Positions 22,053 through 51,799 of a DNA stretch of 64,000 nucleotides are shown here, piece after piece (position 1 is the first letter of the stretch; the number at the start of each line of letters is the position of its first letter). A model generated the notes under the pieces. That model had not been told where the DNA came from and made no database searches. It saw nothing but the letters and a program-made list of their open reading frames with translations. The stretch covers positions 88,184 through 152,183 of the forward strand of contig JAKQEQ010000023.1 of NCBI GenBank assembly GCA_029556545.1. The letters run 5' to 3'. Source of the stretch: Candidatus Hydrogenedentota bacterium (GTDB taxonomy: Bacteria; Hydrogenedentota; Hydrogenedentia; Hydrogenedentales; JAGMZX01). Made by a program: the position numbers and the translations under genes.

Positions 22053-25000
22053 ATGTCCCGAGCCTGCATCTTCACGCTTGCGATGATTCCGGCAATCGCG
22101 GCGGCGACAACCGTCGAGTCGGTCATCCTCGCCGTCGAGGATCTGACCGCCGCGTTTCGGGAGCAATACGAGGAGGGACCGGCGTATCGTGATCGATTGC
22201 GCGCCATCGACCCGTCTTCGCCGGCGGGGGCCACAGCGTTCGAGGCGCTTGCGCGTGAGGCGTTGACGGCTAACCCGTTGCTGGATTTCGATGCGTTGTT
22301 AGTGATTAAACGGTCTGTAAGGCACTTGGGGCTGGTGCAGAATTGGGAAAGCAACTCGAGTCTGCCCAGGCGAGGCTTCGACAACGAAATCGCCGTACTC
22401 TCGATTGCGGGCGGCGCGGCCTCGCCGACGACGCTGTACCGGCCCTCTTCGGATGTATTTGTCGGCGACGTGGACCTCGATTTCGACGGATCGCGGCTTT
22501 TGTTCTCGATGCCGGGCGCGAACGGACGCTGGCAGGTGCATGAGATAAACGCGGACGGCTCGGAATTGCGCGAGCTGCCGCTGATAGTCGAGTCGGACGT
22601 GGACAACTACGACGCCTGTTATCTCCCCGACGGCAACCTCATCTTCAGTTCGACCGCGCCGATTGTCGGGGTGCCCTGCGTCACGGGGAGTTCCCATGTG
22701 TCGAACCTGTACCGTTGGGACCGCGCCACGGGCCATATCCGGCGGCTGACCTTCGAGCAGGACCACGATTGGTGCCCCGAGGTGCTCGAGGACGGGCGCG
22801 TTTTGTACCTGCGTTGGGAGTATTCGGATATTCCCCACTTCGTGTCGCGTATTCTGTTTTCGATGAACCCGGACGGCACGACGCAGCGCGAGTGGTACGG
22901 CAGCAACTCCTACTGGCCGAACGCGATGTTCTACGCGCGGCCCGTGCCGGGGCGTCCGACCCAATTCGTGGCGATCGTCGGCGGGCACCATGACGTGCCG
23001 CGCATGGGCGAACTGGTGTTGTTCGACACGGCGCGGGGCCGGCGCGAGGCCGACGGCGTGGTGCAGCGGATTCCGGGGCGGGGCAAGCGCGTCGAGCCGA
23101 TCATCCTTGACGGCCTGGTCCAGGAATCCTGGCCGAAATTTCTGCACCCGTATCCCTTGAGCGACAAGTACTTTCTCGTGTCGGCCAAACCGACGGCGGA
23201 AGCGCTCTGGGGCATCTATCTCGTGGATGTCTTTGACAACATGACACTGCTCAAGGAATTGGACGGCTACGCGCTGTTCGAGCCGTTCCCGCTGCGGTCC
23301 CGCCCGCGGCCGCCGATCATCCCGCCCGCGTCGCGGCCGAACACGCAGACCGCGACCGTGTATATGCAGGACGTGTACGTGGGACCGGGCCTCGAGGGCG
23401 TGCCGCGGGGCGCGGTGAAGGCGCTGCGGCTATTCACCTATCACTTCGCCTATCACGGCATGGGCGGCCAGATAAACCGGGTCGGCCTCGACGGGCCATG
23501 GGACGTGAAGCGCATCGTGGGGACCGTGCCGGTCGAACTGGACGGCTCGGCGCTGTTCACGGTCCCGGCGAATACGCCGCTGTCGCTGCAGCCGCTTGAT
23601 GACCAGGGCCAGGCGCTCCAACTGATGCGCAGTTGGATGACGGCCATGCCGGGGGAAACGCTTTCCTGCGTGGGCTGCCACGAACCGCAGAACAGCGCGC
23701 CGCCCTCAAAGCCCAGTCTCGCGGCGCGGCGCGCGCCGTCGCCTATCCGGCCCTGGTACGGGCCGACGCGCGGCTTTTCCTTCGATCGCGAGGTCCAGCC
23801 CGTGCTCGACAGGCATTGCGTCGCGTGCCACGACGGGCGCGACGGCGGCCCCGGACCTGACTTTCGCCGCGCGCCGCCGGTGCATCCGCCCGCGCCCGCG
23901 GACGCCTATCGCAAGGGTACGAAGTTCCCGCCGTCTTACCTCGCGCTCCGGCGTTACGTGCGCACGCCGACGATGGAGGGCGACATGCACCTGTTGCCAC
24001 CGCTCGATTTCCACGCCAACACGACGCATCTGGTGCAGGTGCTGCGAAAGGGGCACCACGACGTCGCGCTCGACGCCGAGTCCTGGGACCGCCTCATCAC
24101 GTGGATCGACCTGAACACGCCCGCGCACGGTACGTGGCGCGAGATTGTCGGCGACGACCTGGTGCTGCCGCAGCGGGACCGGCGCCGTGAACTGCTCGCG
24201 CGCTATGCGCCCGGCGCGGACGACGACCCCGAGGAAATCCCGGCGGCGGAATCGGAGGTAGCGCGTGACGCAGGCGTCCCAAACTCCCTCTCCCCGAGGG
24301 AGAGGGGCGGGGTGAGGGTTGATAGAGACATGATGAACCTCGGGCCGCCCCCCGCGATAATGCATGCCGCCTCCGTGATTCACGATCATGGGCAAGATGC
24401 CCATGCCACGGGTCTCCGCGAGATCAGCCTCGGCGACGGCGTGACCATGACGCTGCGCCGAATTCCGGCGGGCGCGTTCGTAATGGGAAACGACGAGGGG
24501 CACGCGGATGAACGCCCCGCGCGCGTTGTCGAGATCGGCGCGCCGTTCTGGATGGGCGCCTGCGAAGTAACCAACGCCCAGTATGCCCGCTTCGACCCCG
24601 CGCACGACAGCCGGCTCGAAAACGGGGATTTCCTCCAGTTCAGCGTCGAGGAACGAGGCTATCCCCTGAATGCGCCGGAGCAGCCGGCGGCGCGCGTCAG
24701 TTGGCGCGATGCGATGGCGTTCTGCGACTGGTTGAACGCCTTGACCGGAGACGACTTCACGCTGCCCACGGAGGCGGAGTGGGAATATGCCTGTCGCGCG
24801 GGTACGGACACGCCGCTCTACTTCGGCGACTGCGACGCGAATTTCGCCGCCCATGCGAACCTCGCGGACAGGTCGCTCGCGCGGGTGGACCTGTTCGCGG
24901 CCTGGGGCCTGCCTTTCGGGGCGATACACCCGTGGCGGCCCGCCGTAAACAAGGTCGACGACGGATACCGCGTCTCCGCGCCCGTCGGGCGTCTTGCGCC

Positions 25001-33615: not shown

Positions 33616-33650
33616 CGTGGCATGGGCATCTTGCCCATGTCCGTAGCGGG
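33616..33650. repeat. dispersed palindromic repeat, family 1 copy c
   Basis: CCGTGGCATGGGCATCTTGC, continuing to CCCATG at 33639, is the first hairpin of the family. The second hairpin is degenerate (TAGCGGGCGG only). It lies in the gap between the PNPOx-like gene and vapB. Confidence 0.75.
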
Positions 33651-33694: not shown

Positions 33695-33743
33695 ATCATG
33701 ATGTCAACGCATCTTGACATCAATTGTGAACACAGGGTATATT
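33695..33743 (+). promoter_or_regulatory. vapBC promoter with overlapping operator
   Basis: TTGACA (33714-33719), an 18-base spacer and TATATT (33738-33743) form a strong promoter. A perfect inverted repeat ATGTCAA-N6-TTGACAT (33701-33720) overlaps the -35 box, and CATCATGATG (33695-33704) precedes it. Transcription would start about at the vapB ATG (33750), so the mRNA would be leaderless or nearly so. Confidence 0.7.
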
Positions 33744-33749
33744 TCAGGC

Positions 33750-33977
33750 ATGAGGACGACGGTGACCATCGACGACGACCTGCTGGCGGCGGCCAAGAGT
33801 CTTGCGCGCGCGCGCTCAGAATCTCTGGGACGCGTGCTTTCGGACTTGGCGCGACGCGGCCTGCACGCAACCCCGCGCGTAGTCGCGGCGACGGGCGGCT
33901 TCCCGTTGTTTCGCGTCCCGCGGGATGCCCATCCCATCACGTTGCAGGATGTCAGGAAGCAGGACGACGAACCGTGA
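33750..33977 (+). CDS. vapB: VapB-type antitoxin (ribbon-helix-helix)
   Basis: A 75-residue protein beginning MRTTVTIDDDLLAAAKSLAR, the beta-strand and first helix of ribbon-helix-helix antitoxins. The C-terminal part (GGFPLFRVPRDAHPIT) would wrap and inhibit the toxin. It overlaps vapC by four bases (GTGA), the usual coupling. Only six bases lie between the -10 box and the ATG. Autoregulation through the inverted repeat at 33701-33720 is inferred. Confidence 0.85.
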   Translation: MRTTVTIDDDLLAAAKSLARARSESLGRVLSDLARRGLHATPRVVAATGGFPLFRVPRDAHPITLQDVRKQDDEP

Positions 33978-34414
33978 GCGTCGGGCTGCTTGATGTAAAT
34001 ATGCTCATTGCCTTGGCGTGGCCGTCGCATGTCCACCATCGCGAGGCGCACACGTGGTTTGCGGCCAACCGCGCTTCGGGTTGGGCGACGAGTCCATTGA
34101 CCCAGTGCGCCTTCGTGCGCATCTCGTCAAACCCGAAGATCATCCACGAAGCGGTCACGCCGATGGAGGCGCTTACGCTGTTGAAAGCGATGACCTCCCT
34201 TGAAGGCCACGTTTTCTGGCCGGATGACGTCCCGCTTTTTGGAGAGCCGGTCCCGACCGATCTGCTGGTCGGTCAACACCAAGTCACCGATGCCTACCTG
34301 CTGGGGCTGGCCATTCGGCACAAGGGCAGGCTGGTCACGCTTGATCGCGGCGTGGCGGCGCTTCTGCCGCCCCACAGCGCGCATCGCGCCGCGCTCGAGG
34401 TTGTGGCCGTCTGA
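33974..34414 (+). CDS. vapC: VapC-type PIN-domain toxin
   Basis: A 146-residue PIN-domain endoribonuclease. Acidic residues are seen in LLDVNMLIALAW (first Asp), TDAYLLGLAIRH (Asp of the third motif) and TLDRGVAALLP (last Asp). The FVRISSNP segment is typical of VapC proteins of this subgroup (motif F.RI.SNP). It starts at GTG within the end of vapB. It would cleave tRNA or rRNA when free of VapB. A convergent toxin-antitoxin-like pair lies 85 bases downstream. Confidence 0.87.
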   Translation: MSVGLLDVNMLIALAWPSHVHHREAHTWFAANRASGWATSPLTQCAFVRISSNPKIIHEAVTPMEALTLLKAMTSLEGHVFWPDDVPLFGEPVPTDLLVGQHQVTDAYLLGLAIRHKGRLVTLDRGVAALLPPHSAHRAALEVVAV

Positions 34415-37615: not shown

Positions 37616-39094
37616 TCAGCTTGCGGCGGCCTGCTCGGCGGCGGCGGGCTCCGGTTCGCCCATGAGGTAGCGGTGGATGGACGCGGCGGCGGTGCGGCCT
37701 TGGCCCATGGCGCTGATGACCGTGGCCGCGCCGGACACGATATCGCCGGCGGCGTAGACGCCGGGCACGGAGGTGGCCATAGTCTCGGCATCCACTTCGA
37801 CGGTACCCCACTTGGACACCTTTAGTTCGGGGGTGGTCTGAGGCACGAGCGGGTTCGGCTTGTTGCCGATGGCCATGATCACGGTATCAACATCCAGCAC
37901 AAACTCGGACCCTTTCACGGGCACGGGCCGGCGGCGTCCCGAGTCATCGGGTTCGCCGAGTTCCATGCGCAGGCATTCCATGCCGACGACCCGGTGCCGG
38001 TCGTCGCCGAGGATGCGCACGGGGTTGTTGAGCAGCAGCATCTTGATGCCTTCCTGCTCGGCGTGGTGCACTTCCTCCGCGCGGGCCGGCATCTGCTCCC
38101 GGGCGCGGCGGTAGACGAGATAGACGTCCCCGCCGAGCCGGAGCGCCGTGCGGGCCGAGTCCATGGCCACGTTGCCGCCGCCCACCACGGCGACGCGCTC
38201 CCGTTTGATGGGCGGCGTGTCGTATTTCGGGAAGAGATATGCCTTCATCAGATTCGCGCGGGTGAGATACTCGTTCGCGGAGTAGACGCCGACGAGGTTC
38301 TCGCCCGGGATATTCATGAACGAGGGCAAACCCGCGCCGGTCCCGACGAATACGGCGTCGAAGCCTTCCTCTTCCAGCAGTTCGCGGATGGTCGCGTTCC
38401 GGCCAACGACGTAGTCCATGACGAATTGCACGCCCAGTTTCTTGAGGTAATCGACTTCCGCGCGGACGATCTCCTTCGGCAGCCGGAACTCGGGGATGCC
38501 GTAGGTCAACACGCCGCCCGCTTCCTGAAGCGCCTCGAAAACGGTGACCTCGTGCCCCAGTTTGATGAGGTCGCCGGCCACGGTGAGGCCCGCGGGTCCG
38601 CCGCCGATGCACGCGACGCGCTTGCCCGACTTCGGCGCGATCTCCGGGATGCGCACCTCGCCGCTGTTGCGCTCGTAATCGGCCACGAAGCGTTCGAGCC
38701 GTCCGATGGCGGCGGACTCGCCCTTGATCGCGAGAATGCACTTGCTCTCGCACTGCTCTTCCTGCGGGCAGACGCGGCCGCACACGGCGGGCAGGGCGTT
38801 CTGTTCCTTGATCTTCTGCGCCGCTTCGATGAACTTGCGCTCCTTGATGAGCGTGATGAAGCCCGGTATGTCGATATGCACCGGACAACCCGTGACGCAC
38901 TTCGGGTTCTTGCAGTTGAGGCAACGGCTCGCCTCGAGGACGGCCAGTTCCTCGGAATAGCCGAAGGGCACTTCCTTGAAGTTGCGGACCCGGTCCTCGG
39001 GGGCCTGCTCGGGCATGGCCTGCCGCGGAATCTTGGGCTTCGCCTTCGGTTTCGGTTTATCCTGGGGCTGGTCGCCGCTGGGTTCGTCAGGCAT
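37616..39094 (-). CDS. gltA: GltA/NfnB-type NADPH-linked flavoprotein (glutamate synthase small subunit family)
   Basis: A 492-residue protein of the GltD/NfnB family. The N-terminal iron-sulfur domain has CLNCKNPKC..GCP and CGRVCPQEEQCESKC. Two Rossmann folds follow, with CIGGGPAGLTVAGDL for FAD and VVGGGNVAMDSARTA for NAD(P)H, and a C-terminal GVYAAGDIVSGAATV closes the FAD site. Known members are the glutamate synthase beta subunit and NfnB, the bifurcating subunit of ferredoxin:NADP+ transhydrogenase. No glutamate synthase large subunit is near. The immediate upstream partner is a NuoG/NfnA fusion with a TAATG stop-start overlap, so an NfnB role is preferred. Lysine- and proline-rich residues 10-25 form an extra tail. 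Confidence 0.85.
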   Translation of the reverse strand: MPDEPSGDQPQDKPKPKAKPKIPRQAMPEQAPEDRVRNFKEVPFGYSEELAVLEASRCLNCKNPKCVTGCPVHIDIPGFITLIKERKFIEAAQKIKEQNALPAVCGRVCPQEEQCESKCILAIKGESAAIGRLERFVADYERNSGEVRIPEIAPKSGKRVACIGGGPAGLTVAGDLIKLGHEVTVFEALQEAGGVLTYGIPEFRLPKEIVRAEVDYLKKLGVQFVMDYVVGRNATIRELLEEEGFDAVFVGTGAGLPSFMNIPGENLVGVYSANEYLTRANLMKAYLFPKYDTPPIKRERVAVVGGGNVAMDSARTALRLGGDVYLVYRRAREQMPARAEEVHHAEQEGIKMLLLNNPVRILGDDRHRVVGMECLRMELGEPDDSGRRRPVPVKGSEFVLDVDTVIMAIGNKPNPLVPQTTPELKVSKWGTVEVDAETMATSVPGVYAAGDIVSGAATVISAMGQGRTAAASIHRYLMGEPEPAAAEQAAAS

Positions 39095-41604
39095 TATTTC
39101 ACCCCTGCCTTTGCATGCGCGTCGCAGCCGCAGCCGCGATGCGCGCCGTCATGCAACATAGTTACCGGTTCCGTGCGACCGACCGACCGGATTTCCTCGA
39201 AGCTGTACGCCTCGCGGCGATCGCGCACCTCGTCCCAATCGACCTGGTGCGCGTCGAAGAACGGTCCGTCCACGCACGCGAACTTCATTTTGCCGTCCAC
39301 AGTGAGCCGGCACGCGCCGCACATGCCCGTGCCGTCGACCATGATCGGGTTCAGCGCCGCGAACGTCTTCACCCCGAAGGGCCGCGTCTCCTCGCTCGTC
39401 AACATCATCATGAAGGGGCAGCCGACGGCCACGACGCAATCCAGCCGCTCGCCGTTGCGGAGCCGCCGCCCGACCTCGTCGACGGCGTGCCCCTTCAGGC
39501 CGGAGGACCCGTCGATGGTCGTAAAGACGAATTCGTCCGCCGTACCCGCCAGCTTTTCCTCGTAGTAGTTCAAGTAATTGCTGCGCGCCTCGGAGACCAC
39601 GACAACCCGGTTGCCCGCTGCTTTCAAGCCCTTCGCGATGGGCAGGATCGCGCCGATGCCGTAGCACCCGCCCGTGAGGGCCACCGTGCCGTACTCCTTT
39701 ATCTCGAACGGGATGCCCAGCGGCCCGACGACGTGCGCGAGACGATCGCCCGCCTCGGTCAGGATAAGTTTGCGGCTCGAACGGCCCATCTCCTGCACCA
39801 CGAGTGTAATCGTGCCTTTTTCCGCGTCCCAGTCGCACAGCGTGTAGGGCACGCGCTCCGAGCGTTCATCGACCATCACGATGATGAACTGCCCCGGCAG
39901 CGCCTTTTTCGCGATCTCGGGCGCTTCGATAACGATCTCATGCGCGTTCGGCACAATCTCCCGCTTCTCGACGACAAGGAAACGACCTTCCGTGTGGATG
40001 GCCACAGCGTCGGCGGGACGCCCCTCCGCGCCTTGCATGGCGCGCAGCCCGGCGACCTTCTCCTCGATCCGATGACCGCGGAAGAACGCGCGGGCGAGGC
40101 GCTTATTCAACGCGGGCGCGGGCGCCTCGTCGCGCTCGACCAACAAGGCCGAATTTTTGAGACCGAGTTGCGCCGTGATCTCGCGGGCGGACTCGTAGGC
40201 GAAGCCTTCGCCGCCGAGCGCTTGGGCGAGATGCGCGATGGTCCACCATTCCGGTCGGGCCTGTCCTGGCGACGCGCAGGCGCGGCGCAGCGGGCGCGGC
40301 GTTCCCGGTCCGTCGAGGACCGTGCCCTCGGTCTCCGCGAAGACGGCGGCGGGCAGCACGGCGTGGGCGCGCTCGCTCACCGCGGTCGGATAACAATCAA
40401 GTACGATAATTGCATCGAGCCCGTCCAGTTCCCCGGCATCCACGAAATTGCCCGTGGTCACGAGGGCGCGCGTGCCCTCGGGAAGCCTCGCGCGCGAGAC
40501 GCCGCGCGCGTCCGGCGTGATCTCGACGTAGCGATCCGATTTCATGACCTCGTTCGTGAACCGCTTGAGCAGATGCCGGTCTTCGATGGGCGTGGTCGTG
40601 TCGCACACCAGGGCGAATCCGTCGTTCACGTAAGGCCGCAGCCGTTCGGCGACCGACGCGATCGCGTCGTCCCACGGCACTTCGCGGAGCGTATCGCCTA
40701 CGCGCACGTGCGGCGTTTTCAGCCGGTCCTCGCCATTCAGGAATTCAGGCAGCGCGAAACGCCCGAGCATGCACACCGGCACGCCCATGTTCACCGCCCG
40801 CGCGGCCACGAGCCTGTTATCCTTCGTCCCCAGACGCAGCGCGCAGGCGGCGTCGCAGAAGATGCAGGTGCTTTCAATGCCTGCTTCCGGGCGTCCGTAC
40901 CACTTCGCGTACCGGTCGGCGAGCGTGCCCGTCGGGCACACATCCACGCACGAGCCGCAGAAGGTGCAGCCGGCCTCCTCGAGGTTGCGGCCGAAGGCCT
41001 CGCCGATGTGCGTCTTCCCGCTGCGATTGATGAACGCGATCACCGGTTTGCCCTGCTGGTGCTCGCAGATGCGGACGCAGCGCCCGCAGAGAATGCACAG
41101 GTTGAGGTCGCGGTCGATGAACGGGTTCGAGCGGTTGATTGGGCGCATGTGATACAGCGGCGCGACGGGAATCTCAGTCAATCCGAGGTCCTCCGACAAC
41201 GCGCGGACCTCGCACACGTCCTTGTTGTTGCAGGTGTGGCAACCGGTCGTGCGCCCGGCCTTCTCCGATTTCGGGCGGAACTTGTCGCAAAGTTCGCGCT
41301 TGCCGCATACGAGGCAGGCGCTCGGGTGCTCGATCATCATCAGCGCCAGCACGTTGCGCCGCAGTTTCAGTAACTCCGGCGTTGCCGTGCGCACGCGCAT
41401 GCCCTCGCGCACGGGCGTCGTGCAGGACGTCGGGAAGCCGCGCATCTCGTCCACCTGGACCACGCAGATGCGGCACGCGCCGAAGGGCGGGAGATTCGGG
41501 TGCGTGCACAAATGCGGGATGTGGATGCCGTGCCGCGACGCGCACGCGAGAATGGTCTCGCCCTCGCGGCCTTCCACTTCCCGATTATCGATCACGAGTC
41601 TCAT
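39094..41604 (-). CDS. NuoG-like iron-sulfur protein fused to an NfnA/PyrK-type FAD reductase
   Basis: An 836-residue fusion. N-terminal [2Fe-2S] cysteines are at about 33, 44, 47 and 61. A His-Cys [4Fe-4S] motif HPSACLVCGKRELC follows near 92-106, then CILCGRCVRIC and CTFCGSCVDVC for two [4Fe-4S] centres. A shortened molybdopterin-type region (CIFCDAACALRLG onward, about 240-530) comes next. The last 290 residues are an NfnA/PyrK FAD/NAD(P) reductase (GQFIIVMVDE, ERVPYTLCDWD, TGGCYGIGAILPIAKGL) ending with a [2Fe-2S] site (Cys 762, 765, 777). There is no hydrogenase H-cluster motif. ATG 41604 has GGGA eight bases upstream; ATG 41622 is possible. It is translationally coupled to gltA. Confidence 0.85.
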   Translation of the reverse strand: MRLVIDNREVEGREGETILACASRHGIHIPHLCTHPNLPPFGACRICVVQVDEMRGFPTSCTTPVREGMRVRTATPELLKLRRNVLALMMIEHPSACLVCGKRELCDKFRPKSEKAGRTTGCHTCNNKDVCEVRALSEDLGLTEIPVAPLYHMRPINRSNPFIDRDLNLCILCGRCVRICEHQQGKPVIAFINRSGKTHIGEAFGRNLEEAGCTFCGSCVDVCPTGTLADRYAKWYGRPEAGIESTCIFCDAACALRLGTKDNRLVAARAVNMGVPVCMLGRFALPEFLNGEDRLKTPHVRVGDTLREVPWDDAIASVAERLRPYVNDGFALVCDTTTPIEDRHLLKRFTNEVMKSDRYVEITPDARGVSRARLPEGTRALVTTGNFVDAGELDGLDAIIVLDCYPTAVSERAHAVLPAAVFAETEGTVLDGPGTPRPLRRACASPGQARPEWWTIAHLAQALGGEGFAYESAREITAQLGLKNSALLVERDEAPAPALNKRLARAFFRGHRIEEKVAGLRAMQGAEGRPADAVAIHTEGRFLVVEKREIVPNAHEIVIEAPEIAKKALPGQFIIVMVDERSERVPYTLCDWDAEKGTITLVVQEMGRSSRKLILTEAGDRLAHVVGPLGIPFEIKEYGTVALTGGCYGIGAILPIAKGLKAAGNRVVVVSEARSNYLNYYEEKLAGTADEFVFTTIDGSSGLKGHAVDEVGRRLRNGERLDCVVAVGCPFMMMLTSEETRPFGVKTFAALNPIMVDGTGMCGACRLTVDGKMKFACVDGPFFDAHQVDWDEVRDRREAYSFEEIRSVGRTEPVTMLHDGAHRGCGCDAHAKAGVK

Positions 41605-41629
41605 AGCGCTAATCCCATTCATTTCGTCC

Positions 41630-41682
41630 GTGGCATGGGCATCCTGCCCATGTCTTCAATCACGGGCGGGACGCCCGTGCCG
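41630..41682. repeat. dispersed palindromic repeat, family 1 copy d
   Basis: A full two-hairpin copy: CATGGGCATCCTGCCCATG (41634-41652), then CACGGGCGGGACGCCCGTG (41661-41679). It lies between two operon genes. The stop codon of the NuoF gene (41660-41662) and its last residues (about AARASRP) are encoded within the repeat. Confidence 0.85.
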
Positions 41683-43588
41683 CGTCTGCCTTCTTTTCAC
41701 GCCGCGGCTCGAACCGGGTCAGTTTGCCGCTCTCCCGGAAAACGGCGGCGCTCGTCGACGGGCACCGGCTGACGCACGCGCCGCAGTGAATGCACAGGTG
41801 CTGGTCGATAACGTGCGGCTGGTTCTTCTCGCCCCGGATGGCGTTGACCGGACAGCCCCGCGCGCAGGCGCCACAACCCTCGCAGTGTTCCGCGTCGATG
41901 CGAAACGTAATCAATTGGTTGCACGTGAACGCCGGGCACTCGTGCTCCGTGATGTGCTGCTCGTATTCCGCGCGGAAATATCGCAGCGTCGTCAGCACCG
42001 GGTTCGGCGCGGTCTGGCCCAGCCCGCACAGCGAGCCCTGCTTCACCGTTTGCGCTATGTCCTCGAGGATTTCGAGGTCGCGCATCGTGCCCCGGCCCTC
42101 GGCGATCTTGTCGAGCAGCCCAAGCATGGCGCGGGTGCCCACGCGGCAGGGTACGCACTTGCCGCACGATTCTTCCTGCGTAAACGTGAGGAAGAAACGC
42201 GCGATATCGACGACGCAACTGTCTTCGTCCAGCACGATCATGCCGCCCGACCCCATGATCGTGCCCGCGCCGGTCAACGACTCGTAATCCACGGGCAAGT
42301 CCAGCTTATCGGCCGGGATGCAGCTGCCCGACGGACCGCCGGTCTGCACCGCCTTGAACGCCTTGCCGTTCGGAATGCCGCCGCCGATTTCCTCGATGAT
42401 CGCTCGCAGCGGCGTGCCGAGCGGCACCTCGACGAGGCCGGTCCGGTTGATCTTTCCGGCGAGCGCGAAGGTCTTGGTGCCGCGGCTGGATTCGACGCCG
42501 AACCGCGTGTACCAACCGGCCCCGTGGCGCATGATCAGCGGCAGATTCGCCAGCGTCTCGACGTTCTGGATGACCGTCGGCTTGTCCCAGAGCCCGCTTA
42601 TGGCCGGGAACGGCGGTCTCGGGCGCGGCATGCCGCGTCGGCCCTCGATGGACCCGATCAGCGCGGTCTCTTCGCCGCAGACGAACGCGCCCGCACCCTT
42701 CTTCACCGTGATATCAAAGGAGAAGCCCGACCCGAGGATGTTTTCCCCGAGCAGGCCGAGTTCCCGCATCTGGTCGAGGGCCACGCCGAGCCGATGCAGC
42801 GCGAGCGGGTATTCCGCGCGGCAGTAGACGTAGCCCGCCGTCGCGCCTATCGTGTGCCCCGCGATGAGCATGCCCTCGAGCACCGCGTGCGGGTCGCCCT
42901 CGATCACCGATCGGTTCATGAACGCGCCGGGGTCGCCCTCGTCCGCGTTGCAAATCAAATACTTTCGGTCCCCCGGCGCCTGGCGGCAGAACGCCCACTT
43001 CGACGCCGTCGGGAAACCCGCGCCGCCGCGCCCCCGCAACCCCGCCTGTTTCACTACCTCGAGGCACCGTTCCGGTCCGGCCTCAAGTGCTTTCAGGAAG
43101 CCGCGATAGCCGTCGCGCGCGAGGTAATGATGCAGGTTCTCCGGGTCGATCTGGCCGCAGTTGCGCAGTATATTGCGGACTTGGCCGCGCAACATCGGAT
43201 GGTCCATGAAATCGCCGATCCCGTCCACCTCGCCCGCGCCCATCTTGCCGACGGCGAGGTCGCCGCAGGGGTCATCGCCCAGCACGTAGCCGTCGAGGAG
43301 CCGCGGCGCGTTCTTCGTGGTGACGGGGCCATAGCAGACGCGCGGTTTGCCGGGTTTATGGATGATGACCAGCGGTTCGAGCGAACACGGCCCAAGACAC
43401 CCCACCTTCACCACGCGCGCCTCGAGGCCGCGCTTGGCGATCTCCCGTTCCAGGAGATCGACGACCTCTCCCGCGCCCGCCGCCACGCCGCACGTCGCCG
43501 CGCCCACGAAAAAGATCGGCGTGTCGCTCCCCTCGAGCGCCTCCCATTCGACTCGCGCCCGTTCGTATGCCTGTTCCAGGGCGCTCAT
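41660..43588 (-). CDS. nuoF: NuoF/HndC-type NADH-binding flavoprotein
   Basis: A 642-residue FMN and NADH subunit. The N-terminal 120 residues are a thioredoxin-like [2Fe-2S] domain (GAATCGVAAGAGE, VGCLGPCSLEP). GLRGRGGAGFPTASKW binds FMN, and GAGAFVCGEETALIGSIEG is the NADH-site loop. ESCGKCVPCRVGT and CGLGQTAPNP supply a [4Fe-4S] centre. A C-terminal two-[4Fe-4S] ferredoxin domain (CEGCGACARGCP, CIHCGACVSRCP) marks the HydB/HndC group of bifurcating enzymes rather than complex I. AGGAGGC precedes the ATG, which overlaps the NuoE stop (ATGA). The last residues come from a dispersed repeat. Confidence 0.9.
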   Translation of the reverse strand: MSALEQAYERARVEWEALEGSDTPIFFVGAATCGVAAGAGEVVDLLEREIAKRGLEARVVKVGCLGPCSLEPLVIIHKPGKPRVCYGPVTTKNAPRLLDGYVLGDDPCGDLAVGKMGAGEVDGIGDFMDHPMLRGQVRNILRNCGQIDPENLHHYLARDGYRGFLKALEAGPERCLEVVKQAGLRGRGGAGFPTASKWAFCRQAPGDRKYLICNADEGDPGAFMNRSVIEGDPHAVLEGMLIAGHTIGATAGYVYCRAEYPLALHRLGVALDQMRELGLLGENILGSGFSFDITVKKGAGAFVCGEETALIGSIEGRRGMPRPRPPFPAISGLWDKPTVIQNVETLANLPLIMRHGAGWYTRFGVESSRGTKTFALAGKINRTGLVEVPLGTPLRAIIEEIGGGIPNGKAFKAVQTGGPSGSCIPADKLDLPVDYESLTGAGTIMGSGGMIVLDEDSCVVDIARFFLTFTQEESCGKCVPCRVGTRAMLGLLDKIAEGRGTMRDLEILEDIAQTVKQGSLCGLGQTAPNPVLTTLRYFRAEYEQHITEHECPAFTCNQLITFRIDAEHCEGCGACARGCPVNAIRGEKNQPHVIDQHLCIHCGACVSRCPSTSAAVFRESGKLTRFEPRREKKADAARASRP

Positions 43589-44079
43589 GATCCCGGAGCC
43601 TCCTCTTTCGCCCGATACTTCGCGAGAATGCCCGGCGCTTTCGCGCGCGTGACCCCCGCGAATACGTGGCCGTCCACCGAGACCACCGGCGCCAGCGCGC
43701 AACAACCCAGACAGGCGACGCGCCGCAGGTCGAACCGCCCGTCCGGCGTTGTCCCGCCGGCCTCGATCCCGAGTCGGTGCTCGAATTCCTGAAGAATCTC
43801 GGCGCCGCCGCGCACGTGACAGGCCGTGCCCTGACATACATGAATAGTATGCTCGCCGGGCGGCTCAAACCGGAACTGCGTGTAGAACGTCGCGACCCCG
43901 TAGACCTCGTTCGGCGAAAGACCGAGGCGTTCCGCCAAGTCGTCCATGACCGATTCCGGCAGATACCCGTAATGGTCCTGCACGTCCTGGAGAATGGGGA
44001 TGAGGCTGCCCCGGTTGACGGGATACCGGGCGACAATATCCGCCACGGCCGCCGTATCGACTGTCATTGTCGTTGCCAT
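43585..44079 (-). CDS. nuoE: NuoE/HndA-type [2Fe-2S] subunit
   Basis: A 164-residue protein of the 24-kDa complex I/HydC/HndA family. A helical N-terminus (SLIPILQDVQDHYGYLPESV, VYGVATFYTQFRFEPPG) is followed by the thioredoxin-like domain with CQGTACHVRGG and VACLGCCALAPVV, giving the usual C-x4-C..C-x3-C set plus an extra cysteine in the second pair (CLGCC). AAGGA lies just before ATG 44079. It is first in the operon nuoE, nuoF, NuoG/NfnA fusion, gltA. It carries electrons from the NADH/FMN subunit. Confidence 0.9.
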   Translation of the reverse strand: MATTMTVDTAAVADIVARYPVNRGSLIPILQDVQDHYGYLPESVMDDLAERLGLSPNEVYGVATFYTQFRFEPPGEHTIHVCQGTACHVRGGAEILQEFEHRLGIEAGGTTPDGRFDLRRVACLGCCALAPVVSVDGHVFAGVTRAKAPGILAKYRAKEEAPGS

Positions 44080-51743: not shown

Positions 51744-51799
51744 CGTGGCACGGACGTCTCGCCCGTGATTCTTGATCATGGGCAAGATGCCCATGCCAC
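51744..51799. repeat. dispersed palindromic repeat, family 1 copy e (inverted order)
   Basis: GTGGCACGGACGTCTCGCCC, continuing to GTG, then CATGGGCAAGATGCCCATG (51778-51796) and CCAC. It is a two-hairpin copy in the reverse orientation to those at 20660 and 41634, directly upstream of the zinc-ribbon gene. Confidence 0.8.

Follow-up and report, generated by a model that had tools for sequence, protein, structure and literature searches.

A Hydrogenedentota operon that looks like an electron-splitting enzyme: NfnAB with a rebuilt NADH pocket tied to a complex-I-like module

Four genes on the minus strand of the window, the whole stretch of 64,000 nt analysed here from a 6.1-Mb Hydrogenedentota MAG, form one operon (Table 1). 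It consists of nuoE, nuoF, a NuoG-NfnA fusion gene and nfnB, and appears to encode an undescribed electron-splitting enzyme, in which an NfnAB with a rebuilt NADH pocket is tied to a complex-I-like module (NuoEFG) that seems to bring its own NADH site. The open-access literature searched yielded neither a nuoEFG-nfnAB operon nor a NuoG-NfnA fusion; parts of the design are known from Nfn, from Stn/Nfn-Bfu and from sub-type I hydrogenases (PMC7483475, PMC10482914, PMC9304861, PMC11406978). If this reading is true, the operon would represent a third bifurcating transhydrogenase architecture beside Nfn and Stn, with the Nfn bifurcating flavin kept and the NAD site moved to another protein via an iron-sulfur chain.

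Table 1. Features of the operon and its relatives (positions in the window; residue numbers are those of the respective protein)
Feature	Position	Strand	Remarks
nuoE / HydC / StnA-like subunit gene	43585..44079	-	164 aa
nuoF / HydB / StnB-like subunit gene	41660..43588	-	642 aa
NuoF N-terminal thioredoxin-like part	43214..43588	-	C33, C64, C68 = cluster B2 of HydB/StnB (alignment to StnB and HydB)
NuoF C-terminal 2x[4Fe-4S] ferredoxin domain	41753..41902	-	B3/B4, ferredoxin port of Bfu enzymes
Loci with GltD-like module replacing NuoF ferredoxin domain			L011, L013, L014, L016, L018, L019, L084, L091, L094, L095, L097
nuoF-fusion gap, 55 bases	41605..41659	-	dispersed repeat CATGGGCARGATGCCCATGCCAC inside, at 41630-41652
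NuoG-NfnA fusion gene	39094..41604	-	836 aa
NuoG-like part, aa 1-524	40033..41604	-	ligand motifs in next two rows; shortened non-catalytic molybdopterin-type domain
NuoG-part clusters			[2Fe-2S] C33/C44/C47/C61; His-ligated 4Fe-4S H93/C97/C100/C106
NuoG-part further clusters			two 4Fe-4S, C170-C180 and C213-C223; N7-like 4Fe-4S C247/C250/C254/C278
Disordered linker, 14 residues, aa 525-538	39991..40032	-	pLDDT <50
NfnA/NfnS-like part, aa 539-836	39097..39990	-	FAD domain, rebuilt NAD domain, [2Fe-2S]
NAD-site glycine loop GGCYGIGA, aa 645-652	39649..39672	-	replaces GGGxGxA
E672 of NfnA part	39589..39591	-	Gly in stand-alone NfnA; 36/36 operonic vs 0/28
AVGCPFMMM, aa 726-734, with C729 for Pro	39403..39429	-	35/35 operonic vs 0/28 stand-alone
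Nfn-type [2Fe-2S] ligands D757, C762, C765, C777	39274..39336	-	invariant in operonic and stand-alone NfnA
NfnB/NfnL/GltA-like subunit gene	37616..39094	-	492 aa
E134, non-Cys ligand of proximal 4Fe-4S	38693..38695	-	33/33 operonic loci
R204, Arg at N5 of bifurcating FAD	38483..38485	-	33/33 operonic loci

The gene content proposed in the initial annotation is borne out by Pfam and NCBIfam, which assign NuoE; NuoF with FMN, SLBB and 4Fe-4S domains and a C-terminal 2x4Fe-4S domain; a protein of NuoG type in which the molybdopterin profile is matched only at its tail and an NfnA/PyrK-type reductase comes next; and GltA. The physical linkage implied by a fusion is seen in a single ORF of 836 aa with both NuoG-type and NfnA-type parts, and its start at 41604 is backed by homologues aligning to the same start. 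The junctions are also as first described, with an ATGA overlap joining nuoE and nuoF (tcATGAgc), a TAATG overlap joining the fusion gene and nfnB, and a repeat-bearing gap between nuoF and the fusion gene. The four subunits may join into one complex. The 23-base dispersed repeat CATGGGCARGATGCCCATGCCAC has four copies in the window (24387-24409, 33617-33639, 41630-41652 and 51777-51799, one of them within the operon) vs none in shuffles, and 35 copies genome-wide vs none for the reversed control. An ORF at 33698-34414 of the window has a second half that, judged by eye, resembles a PIN-domain (VapC-type) toxin.

The order nuoE-nuoF-NuoG-NfnA-NfnB occurs in Hydrogenedentota, Phycisphaerae, Sumerlaeota and one small phylum. 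The survey of fusion occurrence suggested in the initial annotation found it in 33 distinct loci, some cut by contig ends, and every complete locus keeps it; with so many loci sharing it, the arrangement is not due to chance. The relatives include 15 near full-length ones, from Phycisphaerales, Sedimentisphaerales, Hydrogenedentes, Sumerlaeota and other MAGs. Separate adjacent genes for NuoG and NfnA are found in L013, L014, L017, L021 and L101, and in the first four of these the split falls roughly where the linker lies. The Phycisphaerae locus L101:3583-8877 has a full-length NuoG (874 aa, complete molybdopterin profile, apparently non-catalytic), the remodelled NfnA as a separate 278-aa gene, and NfnB. 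This operon is possibly the ancestral form. Taken as a series, these loci suggest that the operon once had five genes, with NuoG first becoming shorter and later fusing with NfnA.

The NfnA part is 46% identical to P. furiosus NfnS. Its fold, FAD domain and Asp/3Cys [2Fe-2S] site are those of NfnAB/NfnSL (T. maritima 4YLF, P. furiosus NfnI 5JCA), with which the operon also shares the bifurcation residues of NfnB. In contrast to NfnAB/NfnSL, NfnA of the operon is fused to NuoG, is encoded with nuoEF, and carries C647, Y648, E672 and C729 in its NAD loops; neither the operon nor the fusion corresponds to the two-subunit enzyme without NuoEFG that defines NfnAB. The canonical NfnAB loop, GGGxG(I/V/T)A, is not found in operonic NfnA, which has GGCYGIGA together with E672 and C729. 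In the ferredoxin-reductase fold, the nicotinamide pocket is bordered by the glycine loop and by the Cys/Pro loop further along the chain. C647/Y648 are present in every operonic NfnA covering the site, and G647 in stand-alone NfnA. The combination C647/E672/C729 occurs in 34/34 operonic loci (28 distinct, six being contigs read twice) vs 0/28 stand-alone NfnA from the same phylum (Hydrogenedentota) and from Phycisphaerae. Tyr587, Trp592 and Phe782 also set nearly all operonic NfnA apart, and about two dozen group-specific sites distinguish operonic from stand-alone NfnA. The NAD-site changes are found as well in relatives that encode NfnA separately (L021; L101, 48% identical). All operonic NfnA sequences (31 distinct) fall into a single clade with a support of 0.999 and without intruders, and the 34/34 therefore represent one event kept under constraint and not 34 independent ones.

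Judged from these residues, NAD binding would have been lost at operonic NfnA, or the rebuilt loop could shift nucleotide preference instead of ending binding. Since the NAD pocket of NfnA is rebuilt, a point that the initial annotation had overlooked, NADH is probably handled by NuoF and not by NfnA. A similar case is P. furiosus NfnII (Xfn, 5VJ7), which likewise has an NfnA homologue with an altered glycine loop and for which no NAD-dependent activity is reported (PMC6405883); unlike the operon, NfnII is a two-subunit enzyme, and its loop sequence at the same place is different (GAYTG). A new cluster with C647, C729 and the Cys of the C-terminal CxC tail as ligands was considered but is not supported, as L013/L014 lack the tail Cys and many stand-alone NfnA have a His-x-Cys tail.

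NfnB is 58% identical to T. maritima NfnL (PDB match 4ylf_B, E 3e-167) and features two 4Fe-4S clusters, with the eight cluster Cys kept in all loci, a bifurcating-type FAD, and an NADP(H) site in which R329/R330/R338 are kept wherever covered. The bifurcating FAD pocket, for which the initial annotation had called as a check on its proposal, is intact, with E134, R204 and the eight Cys invariant in operonic loci. E134 equals E126 of P. furiosus (PMC9503767) and R204 corresponds to R187 of T. maritima (PMC6405883). The glutamate of the CPQE motif was discarded as cluster ligand in favour of E134 (GRLERF), after PMC9503767, and R201 was discarded as the N5 Arg, which is R187 in T. maritima, because it belongs to another numbering. 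Only three group-specific sites differ between operonic and stand-alone NfnB and the bifurcation residues are invariant, which argues that the NADPH/ferredoxin side is unchanged.

These features would fit a soluble four-subunit NADPH/NAD/ferredoxin oxidoreductase with NfnAB as its core and the NAD site displaced to the FMN of NuoF, a reading that is given about an even chance of being right. NADPH would reduce the FAD of NfnB, and the electron pair would be split there as in NfnAB. The low-potential electron would travel through the two 4Fe-4S clusters of NfnB to ferredoxin, and the high-potential one through the Asp-ligated [2Fe-2S] cluster of NfnA to the NfnA FAD. This flavin, serving NAD+ poorly in its presumed present state, would pass the electron to the NuoG clusters and on to the FMN of NuoF, where NAD+ would be reduced. 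All electron-transfer steps would be reversible; the contact of the NfnA flavin with a NuoG cluster and the direction of the reaction in the cell are both presumed. Were the displacement real, it would offer an experiment of nature on which portion of Nfn cannot be dispensed with, and possibly an answer to how non-NAD NfnA homologues such as P. furiosus NfnII find another high-potential acceptor. It would also make FAD-type and FMN-FeS-type bifurcation centres comparable within one particle.

The NuoG part could serve as the wire in such an enzyme: its 22 cluster Cys and H93 are invariant (32 loci), the C122/C125/C131 motif included. This extra motif, C122-x2-C125-x5-C131, adjoins the motif of the His-ligated cluster. 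A catalytic formate dehydrogenase would have a full molybdopterin domain and a dinucleotide-binding domain; in the fusion, Pfam Molybdopterin is matched only at profile positions 284-352 of 353, and Molydop_binding has no match. The H-cluster domain Fe_hyd_lg_C has no match in the fusion protein and is found on other contigs, in agreement with the absence of an H-cluster claimed for the operon. Structure prediction, proposed at the outset, was run on the fusion alone, and both parts have the expected folds. In the AlphaFold2 model (67 alignment rows, mean pLDDT 80, pTM 0.56; pLDDT 68 in an earlier 15-row model), residues 1-525 match NuoG, FDH and StnC-type chains (9bov_A: Z 25.3, rmsd 4.3 A, 461 residues) and residues 540-819 match NfnA (P. 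furiosus NfnS 5jca_S: Z 37.2, rmsd 2.5 A, 272 residues). With the linker disordered and the pTM at this value, the model contains no confident contact between the NuoG and NfnA domains.

In NuoE, the [2Fe-2S] ligands C82, C87, C123 and C127 are invariant across 27 loci, and the best PDB matches are HydC subunits and NfnC. NuoF has kept the FMN/NAD site residues E217 and D219 and the ligands of the FMN-proximal 4Fe-4S cluster (C475/C478/C481/C521). In its thioredoxin-like part, C64 and C68 are present in 27/27 loci covering the sites and C33 in 25/27. The window thus has the NuoE and NuoF features of type 1 Bfu enzymes, i.e., NuoE and a NuoF with thioredoxin-like domain, FMN and B1-B4. Counting against a displaced NAD site, NuoE and the thioredoxin-like domain of NuoF, which are hallmarks of FMN-centred bifurcation, are retained.

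Their retention would agree with a Stn-like enzyme (Bfu type), in which bifurcation takes place at the FMN/iron-sulfur centre of NuoEF and NfnB and NfnA are only an NADPH input chain. NuoE, the thioredoxin domain, the FMN site and the window's B3/B4 domain are intact, the PDB chains closest to NuoF (9bov_B, 7t2r_B, 9n5u_B, 8oh5_B) are bifurcating Bfu/Stn enzymes, and the rebuilt NAD site of NfnA is compatible with an input role too. The comparison with Stn made in the initial annotation stands for the parts in common, since NuoE, a HydB-type NuoF, a NuoG-type wire and a GltD-type NADPH module are shared with Stn/Nfn-Bfu (S. ovata 8OH5, C. saccharolyticus 9BOV, T. sibiricus Nfn-Bfu). It does not extend to NfnA, which Stn lacks, or to the GltD flavin: in Stn, GltD is fused within StnC, has Lys170 as cluster ligand at the position of the Glu ligand, and does not bifurcate (PMC10482914), whereas the operon has a separate NfnB with Glu134. 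StnC has thus lost on this route the ligand that NfnB keeps in 33/33 loci, and the ferredoxin domain is missing from NuoF in 11/33 loci, making a Stn-like mechanism rather unlikely.

The NuoF C-terminus is a ferredoxin domain in 22/33 distinct loci (window included) and a GltD-like FAD/NAD(P)H module in the other 11. On a NuoF+NuoG tree, the ferredoxin form comes out as ancestral and the GltD module arises at least four times (Fitch), vs a mean of 9.4 and a minimum of 6 changes after label shuffling. Where covered, the GltD module of swapped NuoF has Lys, Ser, Thr or Ala at the position of NfnB Glu134. As the ferredoxin domain was swapped at least four times with NfnB unchanged, ferredoxin reduction fits NfnB better, and the repeated replacement of that domain indicates that ferredoxin handling by NuoF is dispensable in the operon. 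The NuoF-GltD fusion is known as sub-type I BfuB (PMC11406978). The replacement of B3/B4 by DPD_II/FAD (GltD) likens these 11 NuoF to the sub-type I BfuABC [FeFe]-hydrogenase of Hydrogenedentota (PMC11406978), from which the operon differs in having no H-cluster subunit and an additional complete NfnAB.

Bifurcation might also occur at both the NfnB FAD (Nfn-type) and the NuoEF FMN-FeS centre (HydBC-type), in series or redox-switched and wired via NuoG and a repurposed NfnA flavin. The window operon has all determinants of both centres, and their co-existence has been proposed, as a proposal only, for the sub-type I hydrogenases of the same phylum (PMC11406978). Such a dual centre is nevertheless improbable, as electrons leaving NfnA at about the potential of NADH could not, by published potentials, drive a second ferredoxin bifurcation, and the loci with the GltD swap have no second ferredoxin port. 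NfnAB and a NuoEFG diaphorase as distinct enzymes, co-encoded and merely tethered, would suit the disordered linker and the five loci with separate NuoG and NfnA, but are very unlikely, as no complete locus departs from the shared gene set and order and the NAD site of NfnA is changed only beside nuoEFG.

The operon and stand-alone NfnAB replace each other, and both together hardly ever occur. Among the 68 Hydrogenedentota genomes covered, all from one order, 21 have the NuoG-NfnA arrangement, 19 have stand-alone or fused NfnAB, and none has both (hypergeometric P 2e-4, kinship of genomes ignored). Sumerlaeota have the operon in 1 vs stand-alone NfnAB in 20 genomes, and the Phycisphaerae sample of 397 genomes in 5 vs ~160, with no genome shared in either group. 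G431 alone might be an exception: its nuoEFG contig is cut before an nfnA could follow, and a canonical NfnAB is encoded separately. The operon is not the sole transhydrogenase of its organism, as PntB is present twice in the genome and also in 52/68 genomes of the phylum; PntB is common throughout and not replaced by the operon. The PntB homologues (proton-translocating transhydrogenase genes) of the source genome are at C9:18927-20300 and C134:213749-215092.

The initial annotation would have given way to a glutamate synthase large subunit or a hydrogenase catalytic subunit elsewhere in the genome that partners these genes, and each has its own partner instead. NfnB as GOGAT small subunit was rejected because GltB, encoded on contig C81, is accompanied at a distance of ~1 kb by a GltD of its own that shares 34% identity with NfnB. 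Membership of the operon in the genome's [FeFe]-hydrogenase was likewise rejected, as a separate HydA and its own NuoF-type subunit are encoded on contig C192. This NuoF-GltD subunit (L039:4164-7223, ~131.7-134.7 kb of the contig) adjoins HydA.
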